Source of the DNA: Candidatus Loosdrechtia aerotolerans
GTDB lineage: Bacteria; Planctomycetota; Brocadiia; Brocadiales; Brocadiaceae
NCBI GenBank assembly: GCA_021646405.1
Contig: SOER01000016.1
Span: 1 to 63,286 of the forward strand
DNA: 63,286 nt
Direction: 5' to 3'
The notes below the pieces were generated by a model that saw nothing but the letters and a program-made list of their open reading frames with translations, was not told the DNA's origin and did no database searches. The position numbers and the translations under genes are program-made. This document shows, in pieces, positions 48,003 to 63,136 of the stretch; the first letter of the stretch is position 1; every line of letters begins with the position of its first letter.

Positions 48003-48614
48003 ATGGAAGATATATCAGCACGCAATTTATTAACGATCATGTTTCAATATCTTGATAAGGAAAAGCTTATTAAAGAAAATCCATCCGTTACAAAAGAAAT
48101 GATTGATTCACTTATTCAAACAATCTCAAACCCGGAAAGTACAACAAAGACTGATTACATCGATTTTCGTAGCCCGGATGTTCAGCATAAAAAAACAGGG
48201 AAATTCAATGAACTGATTATTTATACAGACGGCGCATCAAGGGGAAATCCGGGAAAGGCGGGTATTGGTGTCGCCATATTGGACAAAGACAACCATGTCG
48301 TCGAAGAATTATGCAGATTCATAGGAAGAACTACGAATAATGTTGCCGAATATCGGGCAATGATACTTGCTGCACAAAAAGCCATTGAATACCATGCGAA
48401 GAAGGTAATTTTTAAAACCGACAGCGAACTGCTTGTCAGACAACTGAATGGCATATACCAGGTAAAAAGCCCGAATATCTTACCCCTGTATCATGAACTC
48501 ATGGCGCTTCTCAGGAAAATACCTGATTGGGAGGCCCGGCATGTATTCAGAGAAAAAAATGCCCGTGCCGATGCCCTGGCAAACCGGGGAATTGATTCTT
48601 CAGGGCCAAATTAA
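48003..48614 (+). CDS. RNase HI-family protein with N-terminal extension
   Basis: This 203-aa protein has an RNase H fold from about residue 75: IIYTDGASRGNPGKAG contains the first catalytic Asp, the glutamate follows in NNVAEYRAM, the third acidic residue in FKTDSELLV and the last Asp in ARADALAN. The N-terminal 70 residues are charged and unrecognised. It should remove RNA from RNA-DNA hybrids. It stands just inside the left inverted repeat of the CRISPR island. Confidence 0.88.
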   Translation: MEDISARNLLTIMFQYLDKEKLIKENPSVTKEMIDSLIQTISNPESTTKTDYIDFRSPDVQHKKTGKFNELIIYTDGASRGNPGKAGIGVAILDKDNHVVEELCRFIGRTTNNVAEYRAMILAAQKAIEYHAKKVIFKTDSELLVRQLNGIYQVKSPNILPLYHELMALLRKIPDWEARHVFREKNARADALANRGIDSSGPN

Positions 48615-49135: not shown

Positions 49136-50281
49136 TTATTCAATAACCACCTTGCCCTTTTCCAGCTTTAATCCATACTGCTTGCTGCCGTAAGATCCGG
49201 CAGATGCTATGGTATAGATAGGGGTAAGATTTTTGTCACAGATGCCGTCTGCTATTTTTCTTCTCACCTTACTGATAGTCTGCCGCAATATTTTTGACGG
49301 GACTCCCCCCCGCTCTCTGTACTTTTCATACAACTCCTTGCCCTTCAAAGAGTTCTTGCCAAATATCTTTTCATACCATGCGACCAGGGCATTCAATGCG
49401 TCCCTTCCCATCAAACACCTTATTGAGATATAACAATCAACGCATTCGAGGCAGTATTTTCTGTCCGGATACTGGCAGTGATTCAGCTTTTGATCAATGA
49501 GTATCAGGTAAAGGGATAGTTCCATCGGTGTAAATTCAATAGTCTTGTCACCAATCTCAAGCACCCTGTCACACAGATTCACCTTCAGAGATTCCTGCAC
49601 CAGCGCAGTGTCTATTCCTTCCTGCCCCTGACGGACAAGTTCCCGGAAGCTATTGCTGCCCAGAAGCAATTTTTCCTTCAGACGGATAAACGGCAGTTCT
49701 GCCAACTGAACACCAGCCATGTCTGTTGTCATTTTTTTCACGGTCCCGTCAGGCATCCTGCACGGTATCAATTCCGGTTCTTTTGGAGGATAGAAAAATT
49801 CCGGATTACCTTCAAATTCAGGCCTTACCAGGACGTGATACAGCTTATCCCACGGCCTGCCAAAGAGTTGCAGGGCACCGCCAAGATAGAATCCCATAGT
49901 CTTACGCCCTCCGGCGATAGAACAGTGAAGCCGTGTCGTTGCGTCTCCTGCCTTTTCTCTGATAAATCCTGTTATGATATCTCCGGCTGCCTCATTCTCT
50001 TCGTTGTCTCTTATATCTTGCAACGGAGCACCGTCGCGGCCTTTTATTACTATAAGACAATCCTCATCAAAGCGTATCTGAGGGAGCTTGTATTCCTCAA
50101 TAAGTTGTGTAAGAATATTTCGTCTGATGAGGGTATCGGCAATCAGTTGTTTGCCGTAAGAAGTAGTTATGATGTAGAGTTCCCTGATAAATACAGGAGG
50201 GATGTTTCTGGATAGTGCATAAATTGTTTCAGTAACAATCTGTGGGGTGGCACCTGCTACGCAAATAAGAATGTCTTTCAT
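49136..50281 (-). CDS. CRISPR-associated CARF-HTH protein, NE0113 family
   Basis: This 381-aa protein has a CARF domain (about 1-190) that begins ILICVAGATPQIVTETIYAL and has the ligand loop SIAGGRKTMGFYLGG, the hallmark of the NE0113 CRISPR-associated family. A winged-helix-like C-terminal part (about 215-381; FTPMELSLYLIL, TISKVRRKIADG) surrounds a cysteine cluster (CLECVDC, later IRC). It is probably a regulator that responds to cyclic oligoadenylate from a type III effector. It lies at the left edge of the CRISPR island, with no partner gene in an operon. Confidence 0.8.
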   Translation of the reverse strand: MKDILICVAGATPQIVTETIYALSRNIPPVFIRELYIITTSYGKQLIADTLIRRNILTQLIEEYKLPQIRFDEDCLIVIKGRDGAPLQDIRDNEENEAAGDIITGFIREKAGDATTRLHCSIAGGRKTMGFYLGGALQLFGRPWDKLYHVLVRPEFEGNPEFFYPPKEPELIPCRMPDGTVKKMTTDMAGVQLAELPFIRLKEKLLLGSNSFRELVRQGQEGIDTALVQESLKVNLCDRVLEIGDKTIEFTPMELSLYLILIDQKLNHCQYPDRKYCLECVDCYISIRCLMGRDALNALVAWYEKIFGKNSLKGKELYEKYRERGGVPSKILRQTISKVRRKIADGICDKNLTPIYTIASAGSYGSKQYGLKLEKGKVVIE

Positions 50282-51068: not shown

Positions 51069-51152
51069 ATACAGGTCTTCTTTCCTATACATTCCCCTCC
51101 TGGGAGGGGTTAGGGGTGGGTAAAATACGTGTCGCAATCCCTTCTAATACAG
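51069..51152. CRISPR. Fossil CRISPR unit left of array 1
   Basis: A 3' half repeat of the array-2 type (51069-51088), a 42-base spacer-like segment and a 5' partial repeat (51131-51152, starting GTCGCAATCC) form one relic unit. The spacer core CATTCCCCTCCTGGGAGGGG recurs in a second relic near 60.7 kb. Confidence 0.7.
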
Positions 51153-51533: not shown

Positions 51534-54010
51534 CAGGTCTTTTTTCCTATGCATGAAATAACTTTTATTGTACATACAAAAGAAGTCGCAATCCCTTCTA
51601 ATACAGGTCTTTTTTCCTATTCTTGTGAAGAGTATCATGTTGTATCAATATTGTCGCAATCCCTTCTAATACAGGTCTTTTTTCCTATCAAGTGATTAGC
51701 TATATATTAGAGTGCAATCGGGTCGCAATCCCTTCTAATACAGGTCTTTTTTCCTATGAAATCGAAATCTGGGAAGAAATCCAAATCTGGGTCGCAATCC
51801 CTTCTAATACAGGTCTTTTTTCCTATCAGCGTCAAAAATACGGGTTTCCTGTAATAATATGTCGCAATCCCTTCTAATACAGGTCTTTTTTCCTATTACT
51901 CGCCCAGACAACTGGGAGTACCGGTTAGGTCGCAATCCCTTCTAATACAGGTCTTTTTTCCTATCCGGAATACCAGACAGCATGGAAAGAAGCGTAGTCG
52001 CAATCCCTTCTAATACAGGTCTTTTTTCCTATCTCCATAACATGTCCCCCGCGTGAATGGCTATGTGTCGCAATCCCTTCTAATACAGGTCTTTTTTCCT
52101 ATAGGTGTATCTGGTGGGTTTAAGGCTCTTTCTGGCGTCGCAATCCCTTCTAATACAGGTCTTTTTTCCTATTCTGGGAAGAAATCGAAATAGTTTTATT
52201 TTGCCAGTCGCAATCCCTTCTAATACAGGTCTTTTTTCCTATGCAGAAGCACTTGCAAGATGCCTCTTGAAAGGAGGTCGCAATCCCTTCTAATACAGGT
52301 CTTTTTTCCTATAAATAATAAGGAGCACATTATAAATGCGAATGCACGTCGCAATCCCTTCTAATACAGGTCTTTTTTCCTATAATTACTGAAAAGCCAA
52401 ATTGAACTGGCGTGTTCGGGTCGCAATCCCTTCTAATACAGGTCTTTTTTCCTATGTTTTTATTTGGTAAGTTTGTGGGGGAAAACAAGTCGCAATCCCT
52501 TCTAATACAGGTCTTTTTTCCTATACAATGCATTCATAAAGAATGTTATTATCCATGGTCGCAATCCCTTCTAATACAGGTCTTTTTTCCTATGAGATTG
52601 TGGAAGAGGGTTAGAACCACGGAACACACGTCGCAATCCCTTCTAATACAGGTCTTTTTTCCTATGCAGTTAAAAAAGATTACCTTTGTGACACGAGTGC
52701 GGTCGCAATCCCTTCTAATACAGGTCTTTTTTCCTATCCTGGAAGGACTACCAGATGACTTGGAAGTCGGAAGGTCGCAATCCCTTCTAATACAGGTCTT
52801 TTTTCCTATTAGAATTTATTAATGAATTGTGCAAAACCTTAAGTCGCAATCCCTTCTAATACAGGTCTTTTTTCCTATACCAGCCCAGACAATTGGGTGT
52901 ATCGGTTAGATGAAGGTCGCAATCCCTTCTAATACAGGTCTTTTTTCCTATATACAAATTGAAGTAATATCGATTTCCGGTTCAAGTCGCAATCCCTTCT
53001 AATACAGGTCTTTTTTCCTATAGTATGGGAAATGGAAACTAATCACTATAATTGTCGCAATCCCTTCTAATACAGGTCTTTTTTCCTATGAAAGCAATTA
53101 TTACAACTACGTATGTTTTATTCCTGTCGCAATCCCTTCTAATACAGGTCTTTTTTCCTATGATGGAAGGAGTTCTGAACGAAGAAAATCTTCCAAGTCG
53201 CAATCCCTTCTAATACAGGTCTTTTTTCCTATTGAAGGAAGAAGTAATTATTGTTGACGGTTGGCGTCGCAATCCCTTCTAATACAGGTCTTTTTTCCTA
53301 TGAGATGGAAAATTTCGTTTCGATTCTGCAGGAAGCGTCGCAATCCCTTCTAATACAGGTCTTTTTTCCTATGAATAAATGAAAGAAGAAGTAGTTTTTG
53401 TTAGCGGTGTCGCAATCCCTTCTAATACAGGTCTTTTTTCCTATTAGAAAGGAGATAGAATGTTAGTATTCATAGACTTAGTCGCAATCCCTTCTAATAC
53501 AGGTCTTTTTTCCTATTGCAGACCTCAACCAGGAAGAGCGGGAATTTCTAGTCGCAATCCCTTCTAATACAGGTCTTTTTTCCTATTCGAGTATTGCGAG
53601 CAGCCATGAAATCCAAAAAGGAGTCGCAATCCCTTCTAATACAGGTCTTTTTTCCTATGGATATATCACAGGTTTATATGTATTAGTAAAACACGTCGCA
53701 ATCCCTTCTAATACAGGTCTTTTTTCCTATGACCTGAGACAGCTATGTGTTCAGATTGTTGCTGTCGCAATCCCTTCTAATACAGGTCTTTTTTCCTATG
53801 AATATGTAAACGAAAACAAAATAGAATATTCATAGTCGCAATCCCTTCTAATACAGGTCTTTTTTCCTATGGGCCGATAGCTCTGGAGGTGTGCAGACCT
53901 TCGGAGTCGCAATCCCTTCTAATACAGGTCTTTTTTCCTATTTTGATTTTTATTTTATCATCTTAATTCAGAAAGTCGCAATCCCTTCTAATACAGGTCT
54001 TTTTTCCTAT
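51531..54010 (-). CRISPR. CRISPR array 1: 35 full 36-bp repeats plus one partial
   Basis: The repeat begins GTCGCAATCC and ends CTTTTTTCCTAT on the plus strand; 35 intact copies run from 51585 to 54010 and a 3' half copy lies at 51531-51550. Spacers are 32-37 bases and repeat starts are 68-73 bases apart. On the minus strand the repeat ends ATTGCGAC, like the ATTGAAAC 5' handle of mature type I/III crRNAs, so I infer minus-strand transcription. The degenerate copy then lies at the leader-distal end, and the cas operon lies upstream on the same strand. Many spacers read as sense coding sequence on the plus strand; see findings. Confidence 0.97.
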
Positions 54011-54113
54011 AGCACCCCCTTCCCTTTCTCACGTATTATCAAGTACTTACAAAACCGGTTTTTCATTATATCAGATGTTTTAAAAGTTAGCATGGAAATA
54101 TTTCTGAAATATT
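54011..54113 (-). promoter_or_regulatory. Predicted leader of CRISPR array 1
   Basis: This AT-rich gap lies between the array's first transcribed repeat and the stop of cas2b. A tandem palindrome GAAATATTTC (54095-54104 and 54106-54115) lies about 85 bases from the array and runs into the end of cas2b. A related tandem palindrome lies at 59859-59879. The promoter itself is not obvious. Confidence 0.55.
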
Positions 54114-54389
54114 TCATAGGAATATCTCCACCCCTTCCGGAATCCTGTCTCCCTGACCAAGCACTACACATCGAATATTGGATGGCAGCGGGTATATCCG
54201 TATATCGTCTTTGTTGCTGTCAATTATACCTTTAAGTTCCTCTTTCAATCCTGTTAACTCCTGCCAGGTAAGTTTACAAAAGAATACCGAATACTGTATA
54301 TGCGTTCCGATACCCTTCAGCGTTTTAAATACCCGCCTTAGTCTTTTTGCATCGGTAATGTCATAACAAACGATATAATTACTCTTCAC
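54114..54389 (-). CDS. cas2: Cas2 endoribonuclease-fold protein, second copy (cas2b)
   Basis: This 91-aa protein has the Cas2 ferredoxin fold with the conserved aspartate in YIVCYDITDAKRLRRVFK and the strand IYPLPSNIRCVVLG. Cas2 bridges Cas1 dimers during spacer integration. It follows cas1b by 3 bases and is the last gene before array 1. It differs clearly from the other Cas2 encoded 2 kb upstream. Confidence 0.9.
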   Translation of the reverse strand: MKSNYIVCYDITDAKRLRRVFKTLKGIGTHIQYSVFFCKLTWQELTGLKEELKGIIDSNKDDIRIYPLPSNIRCVVLGQGDRIPEGVEIFL

Positions 54390-54392
54390 TGT

Positions 54393-55229
54393 CTATAGAT
54401 ACTGATTGAATTCCCCACCGAGTCTCAGTTCTCTGATAAGTTCAAACATACCGTCAATAATATGTTCTGTTAAGTTTACGACAGCATCCTTTCTGTTTTC
54501 AAACCGCACTGCTATTGCCTTTACATCTTCTGACGACATCTCTTTGTTTTTACGATGTTCAGCGCCTTTTTTTCCCTGGAAGAATTGAATTGACTGAATG
54601 TCTATCTCAGGACCGAGTACATGGCAAACATCCAGGGCAAGGCCAAAATCTCGCCTCCTGTGCATCACCCCCATGTGGGGGTCGAATTCCGACGCTATGA
54701 GTTTGCTTACAACCATTTCCAGAAAGACTGCGGAAATGGCATTACGAATATAGTGAAACCGTTTGCGATACGGTGCCGTGACGTTATCCATTACCCGCTG
54801 ATACTCTTCTTCTTTGAGGCCTACCGTAACATAGCTGTCGGGTATCTGCCTTTTTAAAAGCCTTTTCAGGACGGTGATCTGAACCCTCTGACGATATGCT
54901 CTCAAAAAGGTCATAAACCGCTTACTGTTATAATCTGACTCAAGGAATATCCTTTGTGTTTTATACTGTCCTGGCAGGTGGTGTTTGTACGGTAGTGTTA
55001 CCGCTATCTGGCTGCCTTTCCTGTCGAAGAATGTTATGGGAATATTGTTTTGGGTAAAGAGGGTTATCAGGCTGGTATCCAGTTTGATATTCCCTACAAT
55101 TACCACCCGCTGAATCATCCTCGCAGGCACACGCCTGCCTGACTTCTCCCCTTCCTTCACCACGATGGAAGGTCCGTCTCTTATTACGCTGAGTGTTGTG
55201 TTTTCATTCAGATAAAGTGTCTTTTCCAT
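54393..55229 (-). CDS. cas1: Divergent Cas1 homologue (cas1b)
   Basis: This 278-aa protein has a clear Cas1 N-terminal beta domain (MIQRVVIVGNIKLDTSLITL) and a helical domain with FDPHMGVMH, keeping the metal-binding His190. Asp200 in LALD is kept, but the next acidic position of canonical Cas1 is His203 (DVCH instead of DLIE). The usual EGxA motif is not recognisable; Glu140-142 are the only candidates. It is about 40 aa shorter than its neighbour. Its start overlaps the end of cas1a by 26 bases. It may be a structural partner in a mixed integrase or a diverged second enzyme. Confidence 0.88.
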   Translation of the reverse strand: MEKTLYLNENTTLSVIRDGPSIVVKEGEKSGRRVPARMIQRVVIVGNIKLDTSLITLFTQNNIPITFFDRKGSQIAVTLPYKHHLPGQYKTQRIFLESDYNSKRFMTFLRAYRQRVQITVLKRLLKRQIPDSYVTVGLKEEEYQRVMDNVTAPYRKRFHYIRNAISAVFLEMVVSKLIASEFDPHMGVMHRRRDFGLALDVCHVLGPEIDIQSIQFFQGKKGAEHRKNKEMSSEDVKAIAVRFENRKDAVVNLTEHIIDGMFELIRELRLGGEFNQYL

Positions 55230-56166
55230 CCATGACCCTCACTGAAATATCCCTTGCCCTCCTGGCAATATCTTTTCTAATCGTTCCGGCCCATTCCTCA
55301 TAAACGGAATAAAACTTCTTCCTGGCATTTTTCTTTAAATAAACCCCTTCTTTCTCCTGCACAAAATCTTCTGAGGTACATTTTCCGTCTTTAAACATCT
55401 CCCATACAAACCGGTCTGTCATCGGCCGAAATAGCTCAATCAGGTCGCAGGCAAGGGAGTCCCGTCCGTAATCAAAACAATGATAAAAACCAATCGTAGG
55501 GTCAAGCCCCGCAACCTGTATCTCCCTTACCGCCTCATAATGAACCAGCGTATAGCAAAGTGAGAGCATTGCATTTACCGGGTCTTTCGGAGGTCTCCTG
55601 GTGCGGGTGTTAAAATCCAGGGATTCAGGGAATAGTCTGGTAAACGCAGAAAAATATGCATTCGAAGCAGCGCCTTCATATCCCCTCAGACTCTCAAGGG
55701 TATCACATTTTGAAGCGATGCTGTCAGCAATATTCTCAAGAGTGCAGAAAACACTGTAAAAAGTTTCCTTCGGGTTTACCTCTCCATTGTTTTTTATTGC
55801 CTCTCCGAGAAATTCACTTTGATGCCCGATCTTCCCGAGGACAATTTCCTTTGATATTGCTATGGCAAAGTCCCTGTTGAGAGATTTTTCATATTGTTTG
55901 ACCCTCAGAATGCTGTTGTTATGGAGACGTCCGGTAAGGATACCCCGGTACTGGAGTCCTCTGCCTGACAGGAATATAACGCTGCTTCCGTTATCTGCAA
56001 GTTTGTTGAGTACGCTTGTTTCTACAGTATTATTCCCAACAATTATCACTCTGTTAAGCGGACGTACGGGAACAATGCCTTCCCTTTTTCCGTCCAGGTA
56101 AAAGGCAATTGATTCACCGTCAAGCTTTATGTGATAACCCTTTCTGTCAATATATAATGTACCCAT
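55204..56166 (-). CDS. cas1: Canonical Cas1 integrase (cas1a)
   Basis: This 320-aa protein shows all Cas1 active-site positions: Glu164 in GYEGAASNAYF, His229 in LDPTIGFYH, and Asp241/Glu244 in ACDLIELFRP. The NFxTRxRRPPKDPVNA-type segment is also present. It should integrate spacers with Cas2. It lies 8 bases after cas2a and overlaps cas1b, so the order is cas2a-cas1a-cas1b-cas2b. Confidence 0.95.
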   Translation of the reverse strand: MGTLYIDRKGYHIKLDGESIAFYLDGKREGIVPVRPLNRVIIVGNNTVETSVLNKLADNGSSVIFLSGRGLQYRGILTGRLHNNSILRVKQYEKSLNRDFAIAISKEIVLGKIGHQSEFLGEAIKNNGEVNPKETFYSVFCTLENIADSIASKCDTLESLRGYEGAASNAYFSAFTRLFPESLDFNTRTRRPPKDPVNAMLSLCYTLVHYEAVREIQVAGLDPTIGFYHCFDYGRDSLACDLIELFRPMTDRFVWEMFKDGKCTSEDFVQEKEGVYLKKNARKKFYSVYEEWAGTIRKDIARRARDISVRVMDGKDTLSE

Positions 56167-56174
56167 GGTATCCT

Positions 56175-56456
56175 TTATCCGAAATAAAAAAACTCAGGAT
56201 CTTTTGGGGGTAATGCGGTACCCATGGTATGAGACCTGCTTCTGCCGTCAAGGGGGAAGATATGAATCCGGTCAGTGCTCTCATCAATAATATGTGATAC
56301 ACCGGTGATAACCTCCCTCAGTTCTCCTTGTGTAAGGAAACATTCAAAGACGGACTTCTGACCGCCCGTGCTGAATCCCTTCAAAAAATACCGCAGCCGG
56401 TTAAGGCGTTTTGGTGTACAAATATCGTATGCCACAATATAAAGATCTCTTTGCAT
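56175..56456 (-). CDS. cas2: Cas2, first copy (cas2a)
   Basis: This 93-aa protein has the Cas2 fold with the conserved aspartate in YIVAYDICTPKRLNRLRYFL, the KSVFECFLT strand and IHIFPLDGRS. It is the first gene of the adaptation module and lies immediately upstream of the canonical cas1. Confidence 0.92.
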   Translation of the reverse strand: MQRDLYIVAYDICTPKRLNRLRYFLKGFSTGGQKSVFECFLTQGELREVITGVSHIIDESTDRIHIFPLDGRSRSHTMGTALPPKDPEFFYFG

Positions 56457-56592: not shown

Positions 56593-57585
56593 TCATGCTT
56601 TAATAAAATACTTTCCCAGTCCGAAACTTGTTCCCTTTCCGACGTGAAGTATTTCCCCTGCCTTAATGAATGGATAAAAGGGTGAAACGATACCTTTGTA
56701 TACGATATCTCCCACAAATCCGCCGAGCTTCATCCTTGTATCCTGTCTGCGGGAATACCGTTCCCAATCGCGCCACTGAAGGTTCGATACCTTTATACCT
56801 GTTGTACGTGCCTCATCTATAAGTATGCGGTGATATCCCTCATTGAACAATCCGCTGTCTTCAGAATTATCTTTACAATAGTAGTGCCTGAGTAGAAATA
56901 ATCGTCTCAAAAGCTGTCTGATAAAGATATGAAATTCCAGGTCAATAATAAGTTTACCGCTGTACTTAAGACGGGTAGGTGTGAGAAATCTCACGGTAAT
57001 TTCTTCGGCAGTGTTCTGTACTGTGTCTGGGATCCTTCCCTCCACCGCTGAAAGGATACTTTGGTTTAAATCTATACACTCATCGCCAAAGGGTTTAACC
57101 TTACGGGTTTTAGAACAGTAGATTAATTTAGAATCATCCTCTGCATCAACCGTATATACCTCCCGGAGCTGGCAACTGCCTCTTCCTCTGCCAATGCCAT
57201 TTTTTCCCAGCAGGTCAAAGGTGTAAATAAAATAGGGCAGGTATTGTATTGCATCGCCAATGAGAACCAGGCCAAGAGAGAACGTTTGTCCCGTAAGATA
57301 CCTTTGTTTCTCTTCTTCAGGTGGTTCTATGACAAACGGATGAGGAATGGAATTTACCCTGCCAAGTATATTAGCCTCATCCGGAGAGTGGGATTCAAAG
57401 ATGTATGCATAGGCGCATCTTTGTTTAAGCAGGCAGTCACGGCAGTCTGTCTTCTTCAGGGTACAGGCAACTTTTTTGAACTGAACGCCAAACGCCCCTC
57501 TGAAGGTAGAGCCTTTATAGGAAGGAAGGTGTATTTCCTCTTCTGCTTCCATAATAAAGGTAAAGCGTTTGTAGGGTATTTTCAT
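56593..57585 (-). CDS. cas6: Cas6 crRNA-processing endoribonuclease
   Basis: This 330-aa protein resembles the PF10040 Cas6 group. The C-terminal part has WRDWERYSRRQDTRMKLGG and HVGKGTSFGLGKYFIKA, with the glycine-rich loop of RAMP proteins, and the N-terminal part has SYKGSTFRGAFG. A cysteine cluster (CRDCLLKQRC) may bind zinc. It should cut the array transcript to leave an 8-nt ATTGCGAC tag. It lies between the CARF-HEPN gene and cas2a. Confidence 0.88.
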   Translation of the reverse strand: MKIPYKRFTFIMEAEEEIHLPSYKGSTFRGAFGVQFKKVACTLKKTDCRDCLLKQRCAYAYIFESHSPDEANILGRVNSIPHPFVIEPPEEEKQRYLTGQTFSLGLVLIGDAIQYLPYFIYTFDLLGKNGIGRGRGSCQLREVYTVDAEDDSKLIYCSKTRKVKPFGDECIDLNQSILSAVEGRIPDTVQNTAEEITVRFLTPTRLKYSGKLIIDLEFHIFIRQLLRRLFLLRHYYCKDNSEDSGLFNEGYHRILIDEARTTGIKVSNLQWRDWERYSRRQDTRMKLGGFVGDIVYKGIVSPFYPFIKAGEILHVGKGTSFGLGKYFIKA

Positions 57586-57668: not shown

Positions 57669-58901
57669 TTAAATGTTTAACCTGGGAAATACAATTACCT
57701 CATCTTCACTGAATATATTAAGACCCAGGATGAACTCCCTGAATTTCTTATAGGTATTGTCACTTGCGCATGCAAATCCGTGAACAAGATAAGAATTATT
57801 TCTCTGTGATTGAATCTGGCGAAAATGTGACAGACGTTTTTGAAATTCCTTACCCAAATCATCCTCCAGCGCTTCGAGTAATTCAAATGCGGCATTTTGT
57901 GATACCTTTATTTTCCCGTCTCTCCTGTCTTTGTATTTCCTGATAAATTCATCACTCACCTGTTGTGGTATTTTCTCTTCAATCACACTACCCGTGTCTA
58001 TCCCATGGTTATTCAGTAACCTTTCCTGGGCAAGCATTTCAACCAGTCTGTAAAGTCGTACAACAGCGTCATCTATCTTCCCTTCCTCAAAACGCCTTTC
58101 AGCATTTGAGAATATATCCAGGGCGAATAACCTGTCGGGTTTCCGTTGCGTCCCGGAAAGAAACTCGAGTTGGGGTTTTAACTGAAGGGTAGCCCTGGCA
58201 AATAACCGTATCCTTTCGTCATCCGTTTCCAGAAGTTCTTCTATCCTTGCCCTTTCAAACTTGCCTACAGCCTCGCCGTGCCTGAAAATATCCCAGCTAT
58301 AATATCCGTCAATAATAAAACCCAGTTTTTTAAAAATACTCTTGTGACTGGTGTTTTTTTCTAATATATCATCGACAAGTGCCTTTGCCGCCTTGAACTG
58401 ATAGGTATTGAACAGGAATGATATCTTCTTCCGTTCATCTATGGCAAGGAAGTCCCACGGGTTGACGCTTTCGTAGACCTCTTCTTTACCGTCAACTACG
58501 GTTCCGACACCGCCCTTTGTCCTCTCTGTACCTCCTACGTAAGAAAAGTTGAATCCATGGGCAACGGCGGAAAGGGAGAGGGCAACAGACATATTCTTTG
58601 TCCCTCCGGTATAATCCACAATAACCTCATCGCTCCGAAAACCTTTCGACAGCACCCTTTTTACCGCCTCTTCTGCCTTACTAAAACAGTGGTACAGGTC
58701 GTTGACCTCGTCGGACAGGGTTATTTCGCTCTTTATGGTATATTTTGCCTCCTGTATCTGTATCCCCTTTTTAATCTCCGTCACGTGGTCGCAGGTATCC
58801 TGGGAGGCGAAGAAGGACACGAATTCCGGCCGGTATTTGGTAATGGATTTTATAATCGGCGCCGGCGTTCCGCCCACAGAGATTATCATTGCCCTGATCA
58901 T
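57669..58901 (-). CDS. CARF-HEPN ribonuclease, TIGR02710/Csm6-like
   Basis: This 410-aa protein has an N-terminal CARF domain (MIISVGGTPAPIIKSI; ligand loop DYTGGTKNMSVALS near 96-109) and a C-terminal HEPN-like domain with the catalytic pattern Arg-x6-His in RNNSYLVHG (about 367-374). Such proteins are activated by cyclic oligoadenylate made by Cas10 and degrade RNA. It is the first gene of the minus-strand cas operon. No cas10 lies in the window. Confidence 0.85.
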   Translation of the reverse strand: MIRAMIISVGGTPAPIIKSITKYRPEFVSFFASQDTCDHVTEIKKGIQIQEAKYTIKSEITLSDEVNDLYHCFSKAEEAVKRVLSKGFRSDEVIVDYTGGTKNMSVALSLSAVAHGFNFSYVGGTERTKGGVGTVVDGKEEVYESVNPWDFLAIDERKKISFLFNTYQFKAAKALVDDILEKNTSHKSIFKKLGFIIDGYYSWDIFRHGEAVGKFERARIEELLETDDERIRLFARATLQLKPQLEFLSGTQRKPDRLFALDIFSNAERRFEEGKIDDAVVRLYRLVEMLAQERLLNNHGIDTGSVIEEKIPQQVSDEFIRKYKDRRDGKIKVSQNAAFELLEALEDDLGKEFQKRLSHFRQIQSQRNNSYLVHGFACASDNTYKKFREFILGLNIFSEDEVIVFPRLNI

Positions 58902-59008: not shown

Positions 59009-59419
59009 TCATGAAATAGAATAAATATTTAAATTGATTTCCTTCCTGATAATTTCAAAATGTTTATCCAGGGTGAGAAGTTGTACATTATTTGCATGAG
59101 ATACTACAGAAATATAGCAGTCTGCAAGTCCGACCGTTTTTCCATTCTGACGTAATGCTAAGGACAGTTCTCCTGCCTTTGTCCACATTTCAGCCGAGTC
59201 GGTAAGAAAATCGAAAACATAGAGGAATTCTTTTATCACACCGAGTTCATTTTTTGATTTTACGCCCTGAATGAGTTCAGCCAGGACAATTCCCATACAA
59301 CAAACCCTGTTATGATCGATGAGGTTCAGTACGATATTCTGATATGGCGCCTGGCCTCTGAAAAACTCAATCCATACGGATGTATCAATTAAAACCTTAA
59401 CCGGTTCTTTTGTCTTCAT
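59009..59419 (-). CDS. vapC: VapC-type PIN-domain toxin
   Basis: This 136-aa protein is a PIN ribonuclease with the first acidic site in LIDTSVWIEFFRG, a glutamate in LAELIQGV and a later aspartate in GLADCYISVVSHANN. It should cut tRNA or other RNA unless bound by its antitoxin. It overlaps the antitoxin gene by 23 bases. Confidence 0.92.
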   Translation of the reverse strand: MKTKEPVKVLIDTSVWIEFFRGQAPYQNIVLNLIDHNRVCCMGIVLAELIQGVKSKNELGVIKEFLYVFDFLTDSAEMWTKAGELSLALRQNGKTVGLADCYISVVSHANNVQLLTLDKHFEIIRKEINLNIYSIS

Positions 59420-59606
59420 GTCTGAGTTTATCTGCCGATTTTATGAATTCCATCTTCCCGGCCATAGATTTTATCTTTTCCGTCTTTTTCATCCGTATTT
59501 CATCTTTTATGGCCTTTATTACCGCTTCCGTTTTGCTCTTTGCTTCAACGGTTGACATCAATTCATCCAGTAAAGAATTTGGCAATGTTATGGTTGTTCT
59601 TGACAT
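59397..59606 (-). CDS. vapB: VapB-type ribbon-helix-helix antitoxin
   Basis: This protein (69 aa from the ATG preceded by GGAG) has the N-terminal strand RTTITLPNSLLDELM typical of ribbon-helix-helix antitoxins, followed by SKTEAVIKAIKDEI. It should bind VapC and repress the operon. A longer frame with a hydrophobic N-terminus exists but lacks a ribosome site. Confidence 0.85.
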   Translation of the reverse strand: MSRTTITLPNSLLDELMSTVEAKSKTEAVIKAIKDEIRMKKTEKIKSMAGKMEFIKSADKLRHEDKRTG

Positions 59607-59666
59607 ATATTTACTCCACAATAATATGCTTAATAAAAGCATAAATATTTTATAAATATTCGTGCT

Positions 59667-60027: not shown

Positions 60028-60165
60028 TTACAAACCTGAACCCTCTGATATAATGATCTTATCTACAGAGTCTTCTGTGTTTGAAGGCTGTGTAATAACA
60101 ACCTTGTACACTTCTTTCGACAGCATCTTCCTTACTATCTCTTTATCATCTGAGAAAAAACTCAC
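60028..60165 (-). CDS. Small coupled ORF downstream of the repeat protein
   Basis: This 45-aa frame begins with a GTG that overlaps the preceding stop (GTGA), and AGGAGG lies about ten bases upstream. It reads VSFFSDDKEIVRKML to IIISEGSGL. I recognise no family. Coupling and the ribosome site argue for translation, but the length argues for caution. Confidence 0.4.
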   Translation of the reverse strand: MSFFSDDKEIVRKMLSKEVYKVVITQPSNTEDSVDKIIISEGSGL

Positions 60166-60608
60166 TCCCCTTTTCCCTCCTTATCCTTCTTCTCCTCCGA
60201 AGATGATGAAGAGAACGGTCTCACAAAACCCGCCCTACTCCACCTGTTATTAAACCTCTCAAACACCTCGTCATCATCTCTTCTTTCAATGAACTCTTCC
60301 CTCTCCCGTTCTTCGTCAAATACCTCAAATCTGTCCTTTCCTCTCCTCTCTACAAACCCTCTCCTATTCCACCTCTTATCGAATAACTCTATCCTCCCAT
60401 CCCTTCTCTTCTCTGCAAACCCCGTCCTGTTCCAATCCTTATCAAACAACTCCAACCTTCCACTCCTCTCATCCTCCCTCACAAACCCTGTCCTATTCCA
60501 CCTCTCGTCAAACACCTCATACTCTCGTCCCACGACGGAGGAGGTTGTTGACCAGGTGGAGAGGAGTATGCAACATGGGAATAACAACAGTAATAAAGGT
60601 CTTTTCAT
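60162..60608 (-). CDS. Exported tandem-repeat protein of unknown function
   Basis: This 148-aa protein has a hydrophobic N-terminal segment (LLLLLFPCCILL) as a signal peptide or anchor, then five ~21-residue repeats with the pattern (E/L)-FD-x-x-WNR-x-GF-x-E-x-R. The first three are nearly identical; the fourth has lost the WNR core. The C-terminus is a serine and charge-rich tail. The pattern resembles small beta-blade repeats that build beta-propeller or beta-flower folds, but I do not recognise a family. It lies in the CRISPR island between vapBC and array 2. Confidence 0.6.
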   Translation of the reverse strand: MKRPLLLLLFPCCILLSTWSTTSSVVGREYEVFDERWNRTGFVREDERSGRLELFDKDWNRTGFAEKRRDGRIELFDKRWNRRGFVERRGKDRFEVFDEEREREEFIERRDDDEVFERFNNRWSRAGFVRPFSSSSSEEKKDKEGKGE

Positions 60609-60710: not shown

Positions 60711-60815
60711 ATCGTAATCCCCTCCAATACAGGTCTTCTTCCCATACATTCCCCTCCTGGGAGGGGTCAGGGGTGGGTGAGTCACAATCCCTTCTAATAC
60801 AGGTCTTCTTTCATA
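60711..60815. CRISPR. Fossil CRISPR unit left of array 2
   Basis: Two degenerate repeats (60711-60745 and 60781-60815), several bases off the array-2 repeat, enclose a 35-base spacer whose core CATTCCCCTCCTGGGAGGGG also occurs in the relic near 51.1 kb. It is a leader-distal remnant or a duplicated piece. Confidence 0.7.
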
Positions 60816-61202: not shown

Positions 61203-61414
61203 CACATGAAAATTCCTATACATTCAAGCTCAGGAACAATGCTGTACTTTTTCTGATCCTCACACAAAGTCACCAAAACACCAGGATATATGGTATGTCC
61301 CCATTCTTGCCATTCTATCCTTCATCATTCTTTATTCTTTTTATTCTTAGTGCCTCCGTGTCTTTGTGTGATGAAGATACCTTAGCTTGATGAATATGGG
61401 GCCAGTCCCCGTCG

Positions 61415-63136
61415 TCGCAATCCCTTCTAATACAGGTCTTCTTTCCTATTAGAATATCTTTCAGGCACTCCCCAAGAAAGGTCGCAATCCCTTCTAATAC
61501 AGGTCTTCTTTCCTATATCGTAATTTATTACATTTTTAACATTGTTATTAGGTCGCAATCCCTTCTAATACAGGTCTTCTTTCCTATGGGGCATATCATG
61601 TCTGATGCACCCCCTGGAGGTTTACCGTCGCAATCCCTTCTAATACAGGTCTTCTTTCCTATGTATGAATGAGGCAATCCGTGCCGGTAAGAACCGTCGC
61701 AATCCCTTCTAATACAGGTCTTCTTTCCTATACCATCACGAGAAGATAACGCAACAACAGAACGTCGCAATCCCTTCTAATACAGGTCTTCTTTCCTATG
61801 GAAAAAAACTGTTGAGGTTGAGGAAAAATCAATGTCGCAATCCCTTCTAATACAGGTCTTCTTTCCTATAAGAAATAAAGACTTGTCAGTGGCTGAATTC
61901 ATTGTCGCAATCCCTTCTAATACAGGTCTTCTTTCCTATATAAAAAATTAAACAAAGAAGGAAAGGCAGAAGGGTCGCAATCCCTTCTAATACAGGTCTT
62001 CTTTCCTATAACAGAGAGAAGCTGGATGAATATGGCTTGGAAGCGTCGCAATCCCTTCTAATACAGGTCTTCTTTCCTATGCCTTGATGAGTGGAAAGGG
62101 TTGGAATCTTCCCAGGTCGCAATCCCTTCTAATACAGGTCTTCTTTCCTATCTTCTGTCTCATAGACAGGTGTTATGTTACCTGTCGTCGCAATCCCTTC
62201 TAATACAGGTCTTCTTTCCTATTCTAGAACAAGGAAGTATGGCATCACAAGTAGTCGCAATCCCTTCTAATACAGGTCTTCTTTCCTATGATTCATTAGA
62301 CGCATTAATTCCAAGAGTTGCTTTGTCGCAATCCCTTCTAATACAGGTCTTCTTTCCTATGGGATGGAGGGGATCCTGACGCATGACGAATTGCCGTCGC
62401 AATCCCTTCTAATACAGGTCTTCTTTCCTATGAAAAGGAGCAAGTTAAAACGCTTCTTAACCTCGTCGTCGCAATCCCTTCTAATACAGGTCTTCTTTCC
62501 TATTCGAAACACTGCCGGATGAAGAGGAAATACGAAGTCGCAATCCCTTCTAATACAGGTCTTCTTTCCTATGCGGCCTCATTGAGCCTATAAGGATTCT
62601 AAAAGCATGTCGCAATCCCTTCTAATACAGGTCTTCTTTCCTATGCCAGAAAGCAATAAGATTATCTGGATTCTGCTGTCGCAATCCCTTCTAATACAGG
62701 TCTTCTTTCCTATAGATAGGAAATGGACAAAAAAAATGCTTTCTGGCGTCGCAATCCCTTCTAATACAGGTCTTCTTTCCTATCATACTAACTCTGGCTT
62801 AAGATTCTTGTATTATAGTCGCAATCCCTTCTAATACAGGTCTTCTTTCCTATCTAGAAATGGGATCAATGGCATCTCAAGTAATCTCGTCGCAATCCCT
62901 TCTAATACAGGTCTTCTTTCCTATCATACTAACTCTGGCTTAAGATTCTTGTATTATAGTCGCAATCCCTTCTAATACAGGTCTTCTTTCCTATGTTGCG
63001 CCAGTGACAGATTATTTTCTGCCACTGGCGTCGCAATCCCTTCTAATACAGGTCTTCTTTCCTATTTAGAAGATTTAGAAAATTTCTTCGATGGTACGAT
63101 GTCGCAATCCCTTCTAATACAGGTCTTCTTTCCTAT
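61415..63136 (-). CRISPR. CRISPR array 2: 25 repeats of 36 bp
   Basis: The repeat is that of array 1 except position 28 (C instead of T, giving CTTCTTTCC). There are 24 spacers of about 30-39 bases. Direction is inferred as minus from the ATTGCGAC end. All repeats to the right end look intact. Two spacers (62784-62817 and 62925-62958) are identical. The expected leader side is cut by a transposase gene 30 bases after the last repeat. Confidence 0.97.

Follow-up and report, generated by a model that had tools for sequence, protein, structure and literature searches.

Bacterial CRISPR memory storage normally uses one Cas1 and one Cas2 protein, and the type III locus described here raises the question of what a system with two of each might do with them. 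The stretch of DNA that we analysed (the window) is a whole contig of 63,286 nucleotides from Candidatus Loosdrechtia aerotolerans, in which four adaptation genes are transcribed on the minus strand from 56456 to 54114 in the order cas2a-cas1a-cas1b-cas2b (Table 1). A gap of 8 bp separates cas2a from cas1a, cas1a and cas1b overlap by 26 bp, and 3 bp lie between cas1b and cas2b. Both Cas1 proteins scored above the Pfam Cas1 cut-off of 22.3 bits (275.3 for Cas1a and 59.9 for Cas1b), and both Cas2 proteins above the Pfam Cas2 cut-off of 23.8 (57.5 for Cas2a and 78.7 for Cas2b) and the NCBIfam cut-offs. The positions of the open reading frames and these profile matches bear out the sequence-only reading of the locus, which had described two different Cas1 and two different Cas2 proteins encoded on one strand with tight spacing. 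An early sign that Cas1b is no ordinary Cas1 was its score against the NCBIfam cas1 equivalog, 52.9 bits against a cut-off of 71.7, where Cas1a reached 220 bits; hhalign matched Cas1b to Cas1a at 98.9%. Two further Cas1 genes reside elsewhere in the same genome, each the sole Cas1 match of its contig. As detailed below, the memory-writing machine encoded by the four genes is probably made of four distinct parts, not two.

Table 1. Features of the four-gene unit and its surroundings in the window.
Feature	Position	Strand	Description
cas2a	56175..56456	minus	93 aa; first Cas2, distinct family: GGQKS conserved, DPxFFYFG-like C-terminal tail
cas1a	55204..56166	minus	320 aa; canonical catalytic Cas1 by residues E164, H229, D241, E244
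cas1b	54393..55229	minus	278 aa; pseudo-Cas1, degenerate active site V136, H190, D200, H203
cas2b	54114..54389	minus	91 aa; second Cas2, distinct family: QYSVF motif, short C-terminus
cas6	56593..57585	minus	crRNA-processing endonuclease of the four-gene unit's locus, upstream of the unit
Csm6/Csx1-type CARF-HEPN effector	57669..58901	minus	same type III locus, upstream of the unit
leader of array 1	54011..54113	minus	paired GAAATATTTC elements, GTAAnTACTTG, GAGAAAGGnAAGGGG adjoining first repeat
array 1	51585..54010	minus	35 identical 36-nt repeats, 34 distinct spacers of 32-37 nt

The order cas2a-cas1a-cas1b-cas2b was repeated in 18 further loci, six from Brocadiaceae and 12 from genomes of a second phylum, giving 19 loci with the window (7 and 12, respectively). 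All four genes are visible in 18; locus L068 of genome G533 is incomplete, a contig edge falling inside cas1b. Tight spacing is not universal, since up to 3.4 kb of accessory genes lie between members of the unit in relatives; the order is constant. Homology search recovered Cas1b from five other genomes of the window's family, and the Brocadiaceae relatives that carry it are anammox bacteria, including Ca. Jettenia ecosi and Ca. Kuenenia hertensis; beyond the family this search returned only weak N-terminal matches at the level of ordinary Cas1. One full-length Cas1b relative (37% identity) was present in a 'Deltaproteobacteria' assembly, in which the four genes occur in the same order with the 26-bp cas1a/cas1b overlap retained, downstream of csm-like genes and adjoining cas6 and an array whose repeat is similar. 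Profile search of 345 genomes of that assembly's phylum found Cas1b in 12, down to about 20% identity. Searches of viral contigs and plasmids returned no Cas1b; the plasmid matches of the divergent Cas1b of L070 were only ordinary cas1d genes and were rejected.

Cas1a and Cas1b travel together. In the same 345 genomes, the Cas1a profile scored 308-526 bits in exactly the 12 genomes with Cas1b and 233 bits for the next Cas1, a gap whose size is partly built in, the profile having been trained on the sequences that it scored. No intermediate Cas1a lacking Cas1b appeared in this sample. The sequence-only reading had named cas1b occurring alone in many genomes as a result that would speak against joint action; no Cas1b without Cas1a was found. 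In a tree of 77 Cas1 proteins, Cas1a formed one clade (SH-aLRT 99) and Cas1b another (SH-aLRT 100), with similar branching inside the two; long branches make it uncertain how deeply Cas1b diverges from the rest of Cas1. Across 16 loci, the pairwise distances measured for each of the four proteins were correlated with one another (Spearman 0.82-0.89), a pattern that may come from shared descent alone, and co-occurrence is also expected of two proteins that act at different steps of one pathway. Taken together, the 18 further loci of the same order, the shared occurrence and the congruent trees uphold the earlier proposal that the products of the four genes belong together.

We then compared the two Cas1 active sites. 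Solved Cas1 proteins align to almost all of Cas1a (8d3l, E 1e-59), and the four catalytic residues of Cas1a (Table 1) are all retained in 17 of 17 orthologues. Cas1b lacks an intact four-residue active site. The catalytic glutamate is replaced by V, N, K, R or S and is lost in 14 of 16 members, being present only in L066 and L073, the latter poorly aligned; the histidine position holds H, N, K or D; and the second C-terminal acid has become H, Y, F, R or Q, with an acidic residue in none of 15. The register of this comparison was taken from sequence profiles, by hhalign to Cas1a and by profile alignment to the solved Cas1 4xtk, which place G137 on a conserved G and Y143 on a conserved Y at equal spacing. 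A first MAFFT alignment, in which the segment containing the Cas1a glutamate fell in a gap and a hand shift could restore an acid, was set aside in favour of this register, so that the assignment of V/N/K/R/S to the glutamate position holds with some uncertainty. An AlphaFold2 model of Cas1b from a shallow four-row alignment was discarded at a pLDDT of 42 (Cas1a, 79).

Because its active-site residues are replaced, Cas1b is predicted to be incapable of strand transfer. It could keep some residual chemistry, given that the position of the first C-terminal acid (D200) is D or E in 15 of 15 alignable members and that histidine (H190 in the window) persists in 10 of 16. These same residues are what an altered activity would draw on, namely another nuclease or trimming reaction carried out by the remaining acid and histidine, which we regard as very improbable, since the histidine gives way to N, K or D in other members and the acids that are left make up an incomplete metal site. 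The predicted catalytic loss was missed by the sequence-only reading. It replaces a model of two integrases by one in which one Cas1 is catalytic and the other structural.

A degenerate active site is also what a functionless, decaying duplicate would display, and two of the 19 cas1b copies carry disabling changes, a 1-nt deletion in L027 and an in-frame TAG in L064; both are single changes in assembled genomes and are possibly assembly errors. However, cas1b is an open frame in 17 of 19 loci (L068 in part), and its dN/dS within Brocadiaceae is 0.13-0.17 (cas1a, 0.09-0.16), demonstrating that cas1b is under purifying selection, as is cas1a. With Cas1b moreover forming an ancient single clade in two phyla, decay of cas1b-cas2b is an extremely improbable explanation, and the general decay that the earlier reading had proposed to look for was not observed. 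Neither chance duplication nor decay of a copy accounts for the four-gene unit. Mean pairwise identity of Cas1b is 0.46 in the N-terminal and 0.33 in the C-terminal domain, as against 0.54 and 0.62 in Cas1a; the N-terminal domain, which is the dimerisation domain of Cas1, is conserved nearly like that of Cas1a, and the catalytic domain is relaxed.

The two Cas2 proteins are likewise members of distinct families. Both match solved Cas2 and are about 40% identical to each other within one genome, whereas among Brocadiaceae Cas2a proteins are 79-92% identical to one another and Cas2b proteins likewise 79-92%. In every complete locus the upstream Cas2 was matched best by the Cas2a profile and the downstream Cas2 by the Cas2b profile. 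An N-terminal YD is present in all 34 aligned Cas2 sequences; the GGQKS motif was found in 17 of 17 aligned Cas2a, whose C-terminal tail is unlike that of Cas2b.

The arrays bear on whether the duplicated genes serve two separate insertion sites. Array 1 starts 103 bp beyond the cas2b stop codon, so the earlier description of the unit as running straight into it holds in that the array lies directly downstream, and needs amending in that a leader of about 100 bp intervenes. Three Brocadiaceae relatives, G248, G106 and Ca. Jettenia ecosi, have conserved this leader. Long arrays (44 to over 60 repeats) come immediately after cas2b in L071-L073, which fits with adaptation that works. The array of G239 occupies another part of its locus. 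No protospacer for the array 1 spacers was found among phage genomes. A second array (array 2, 61414-63136) contains 25 repeats, one base different from the array 1 repeat, and one duplicated spacer. Two arrays whose repeats differ by one base flank the genes, which speaks for the earlier suggestion of two complete, independent integrases for two arrays or leaders. We consider this very unlikely: Cas1b is missing catalytic residues, and no leader resembling that of array 1 was detected beside array 2 (best local score 8 over about 130 bp), whereas the array 1 leader is conserved in relatives. The idea of two leaders is without support because array 2, with its duplicated spacer, looks like an orphan array. 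Next to degenerate repeats at the far ends of both arrays are two copies of a 40-bp stretch (51082-51121 and 60739-60778) with 95% identity, which suggests a common origin or a dispersed repeat. Near array 2, a small protein of repeated units of about 21 residues (FDxxWNRxGFVExR-like) is encoded at 60162-60608.

The type III effector genes of the window are limited to cas6, the Csm6/Csx1 gene and one CARF gene; a linked cas10 effector module was found in relatives and not among the window's genes. Named by reading their open reading frames, these modules are cmr-like (III-B) in G248 (L105) and csm-like (III-A) in G106 (L106), G239 (L107) and L031. With cmr-like and csm-like partners in different relatives, the four-gene unit is therefore a portable adaptation module, not tied to one effector type. 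Several neighbouring genes were recorded. A CARF protein (NE0113/Csm6 ring-nuclease-like) is encoded at 49136-50281, on the far side of array 1, and its orthologues head the effector operons of G248 and G106. A VapBC-like toxin-antitoxin pair (59009-59642) adjoins the Csm6 gene, and a similar PIN-domain gene adjoins csm6 in G106 (L106:4980-5384) and G239 (L107:3928-4332). A CARF protein with the adenosine-deaminase-like motif DLHCHxGGA is encoded in the cas2a/cas1a interval of L027 (10098-11915) and in the cas1a/cas1b interval of L070 (8001-10169). An RNase HI-like gene lies near the locus at 48003-48614; none was seen in the equivalent position of G248 or G106.

How might the four products work together? 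The solved type I-F complex has two Cas1 dimers around a Cas2 dimer; all four Cas1 copies are the same protein, the active ones being placed at the ends and the inactive ones along the repeat channel (PMC12259127). On balance, we favour the reading that the four genes encode one heteromeric type III spacer integrase composed of a catalytic Cas1a, a dedicated non-catalytic Cas1b and two types of Cas2. Cas1a would perform both strand-transfer reactions, and Cas1b would fill, in each dimer, the position ordinarily held by a catalytically idle copy of the same Cas1; the division of labour between active and inactive Cas1 would thereby have become genetic. The bridge at the centre would consist of Cas2a and Cas2b, in the simplest case as a heterodimer, which would break the two-fold symmetry and yield an asymmetric complex that could take a fixed orientation relative to the leader or the prespacer ends. 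We infer the physical complex, its stoichiometry, the Cas2 heterodimer and the function of the asymmetry from the comparisons above. A more specific version, in which the integrase is obligately heteromeric, built of Cas1a-Cas1b dimers on a Cas2a-Cas2b bridge, and in which protein asymmetry sets the leader-side end of the spacer in place of Cas4 or PAM cues, is put forward only tentatively.

Alternatively, Cas1b-Cas2b could be a complex of its own that does not integrate. Its task would be to capture, protect or measure prespacers, or to regulate adaptation, and to pass the prespacers on to a conventional Cas1a-Cas2a integrase. Cas1a and Cas2a appear complete on their own, and cas1b and cas2b are neighbours wherever both are visible, albeit 2.4 kb apart in L028; where accessory genes part cas1a from cas1b (L069 and L070), cas2a-cas1a and cas1b-cas2b each stay joined. 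The pairing is not strict, however, as the break falls between cas1b and cas2b in L028 and between cas2a and cas1a in L027, and a pair able to work alone would be expected to lose its helper at times, yet none of the 345 genomes had a Cas1a of this clade without Cas1b. We therefore judge a separate complex rather unlikely and retain the single heteromeric integrase as the probable reading.

A second, diverged Cas1 gene has already been noticed by others, as the name of PADLOC profile PDLC01185, 'Cas1, diverged variant, second in the loci', fits the same situation as Cas1b, and the profile matches Cas1b weakly and L073 better. It scored 60 bits on L073, the most divergent Cas1b, and 19-33 bits on the others (25 bits on the window's Cas1b), the match being restricted to residues 1-115 of 246 and weak on the Brocadiaceae type; it gave no match in 14 control genomes. 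The profile carries no description of a second Cas2, a fixed gene order or catalytic loss, and the open-access papers searched contained no description of the four-gene unit, the Cas1 catalytic loss or the paired Cas2. In Cas4-Cas1-Cas2 systems and Cas4/Cas1 fusions, Cas1-Cas2 is joined by a further protein in selecting and processing prespacers (PMC6519985), whereas here the extra parts are Cas1 and Cas2 homologues. No Cas4 domain was detected in Cas1a, Cas1b or the annotated genes beside them. Like RT-Cas1 of type III systems, the locus is a variant of type III adaptation in which Cas1 is altered; neither Cas1a nor Cas1b contains a reverse transcriptase domain. With the canonical Cas1-Cas2 integrases of types I-E, I-F and I-C it shares a Cas1a and Cas2 that match solved proteins and an array with a leader directly downstream, but the canonical systems use one Cas1 gene for the active and inactive positions and one Cas2 gene, where this locus has two of each. 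To our knowledge, a single Cas1 polypeptide fills both roles in every integrase described structurally, so that the catalytic and structural functions are hard to separate. If these roles are split between two Cas1 genes, and Cas2 is split as well, each position could be mutated separately, and how a symmetric-looking integrase inserts spacers in an oriented way would become directly testable, notably for type III systems.
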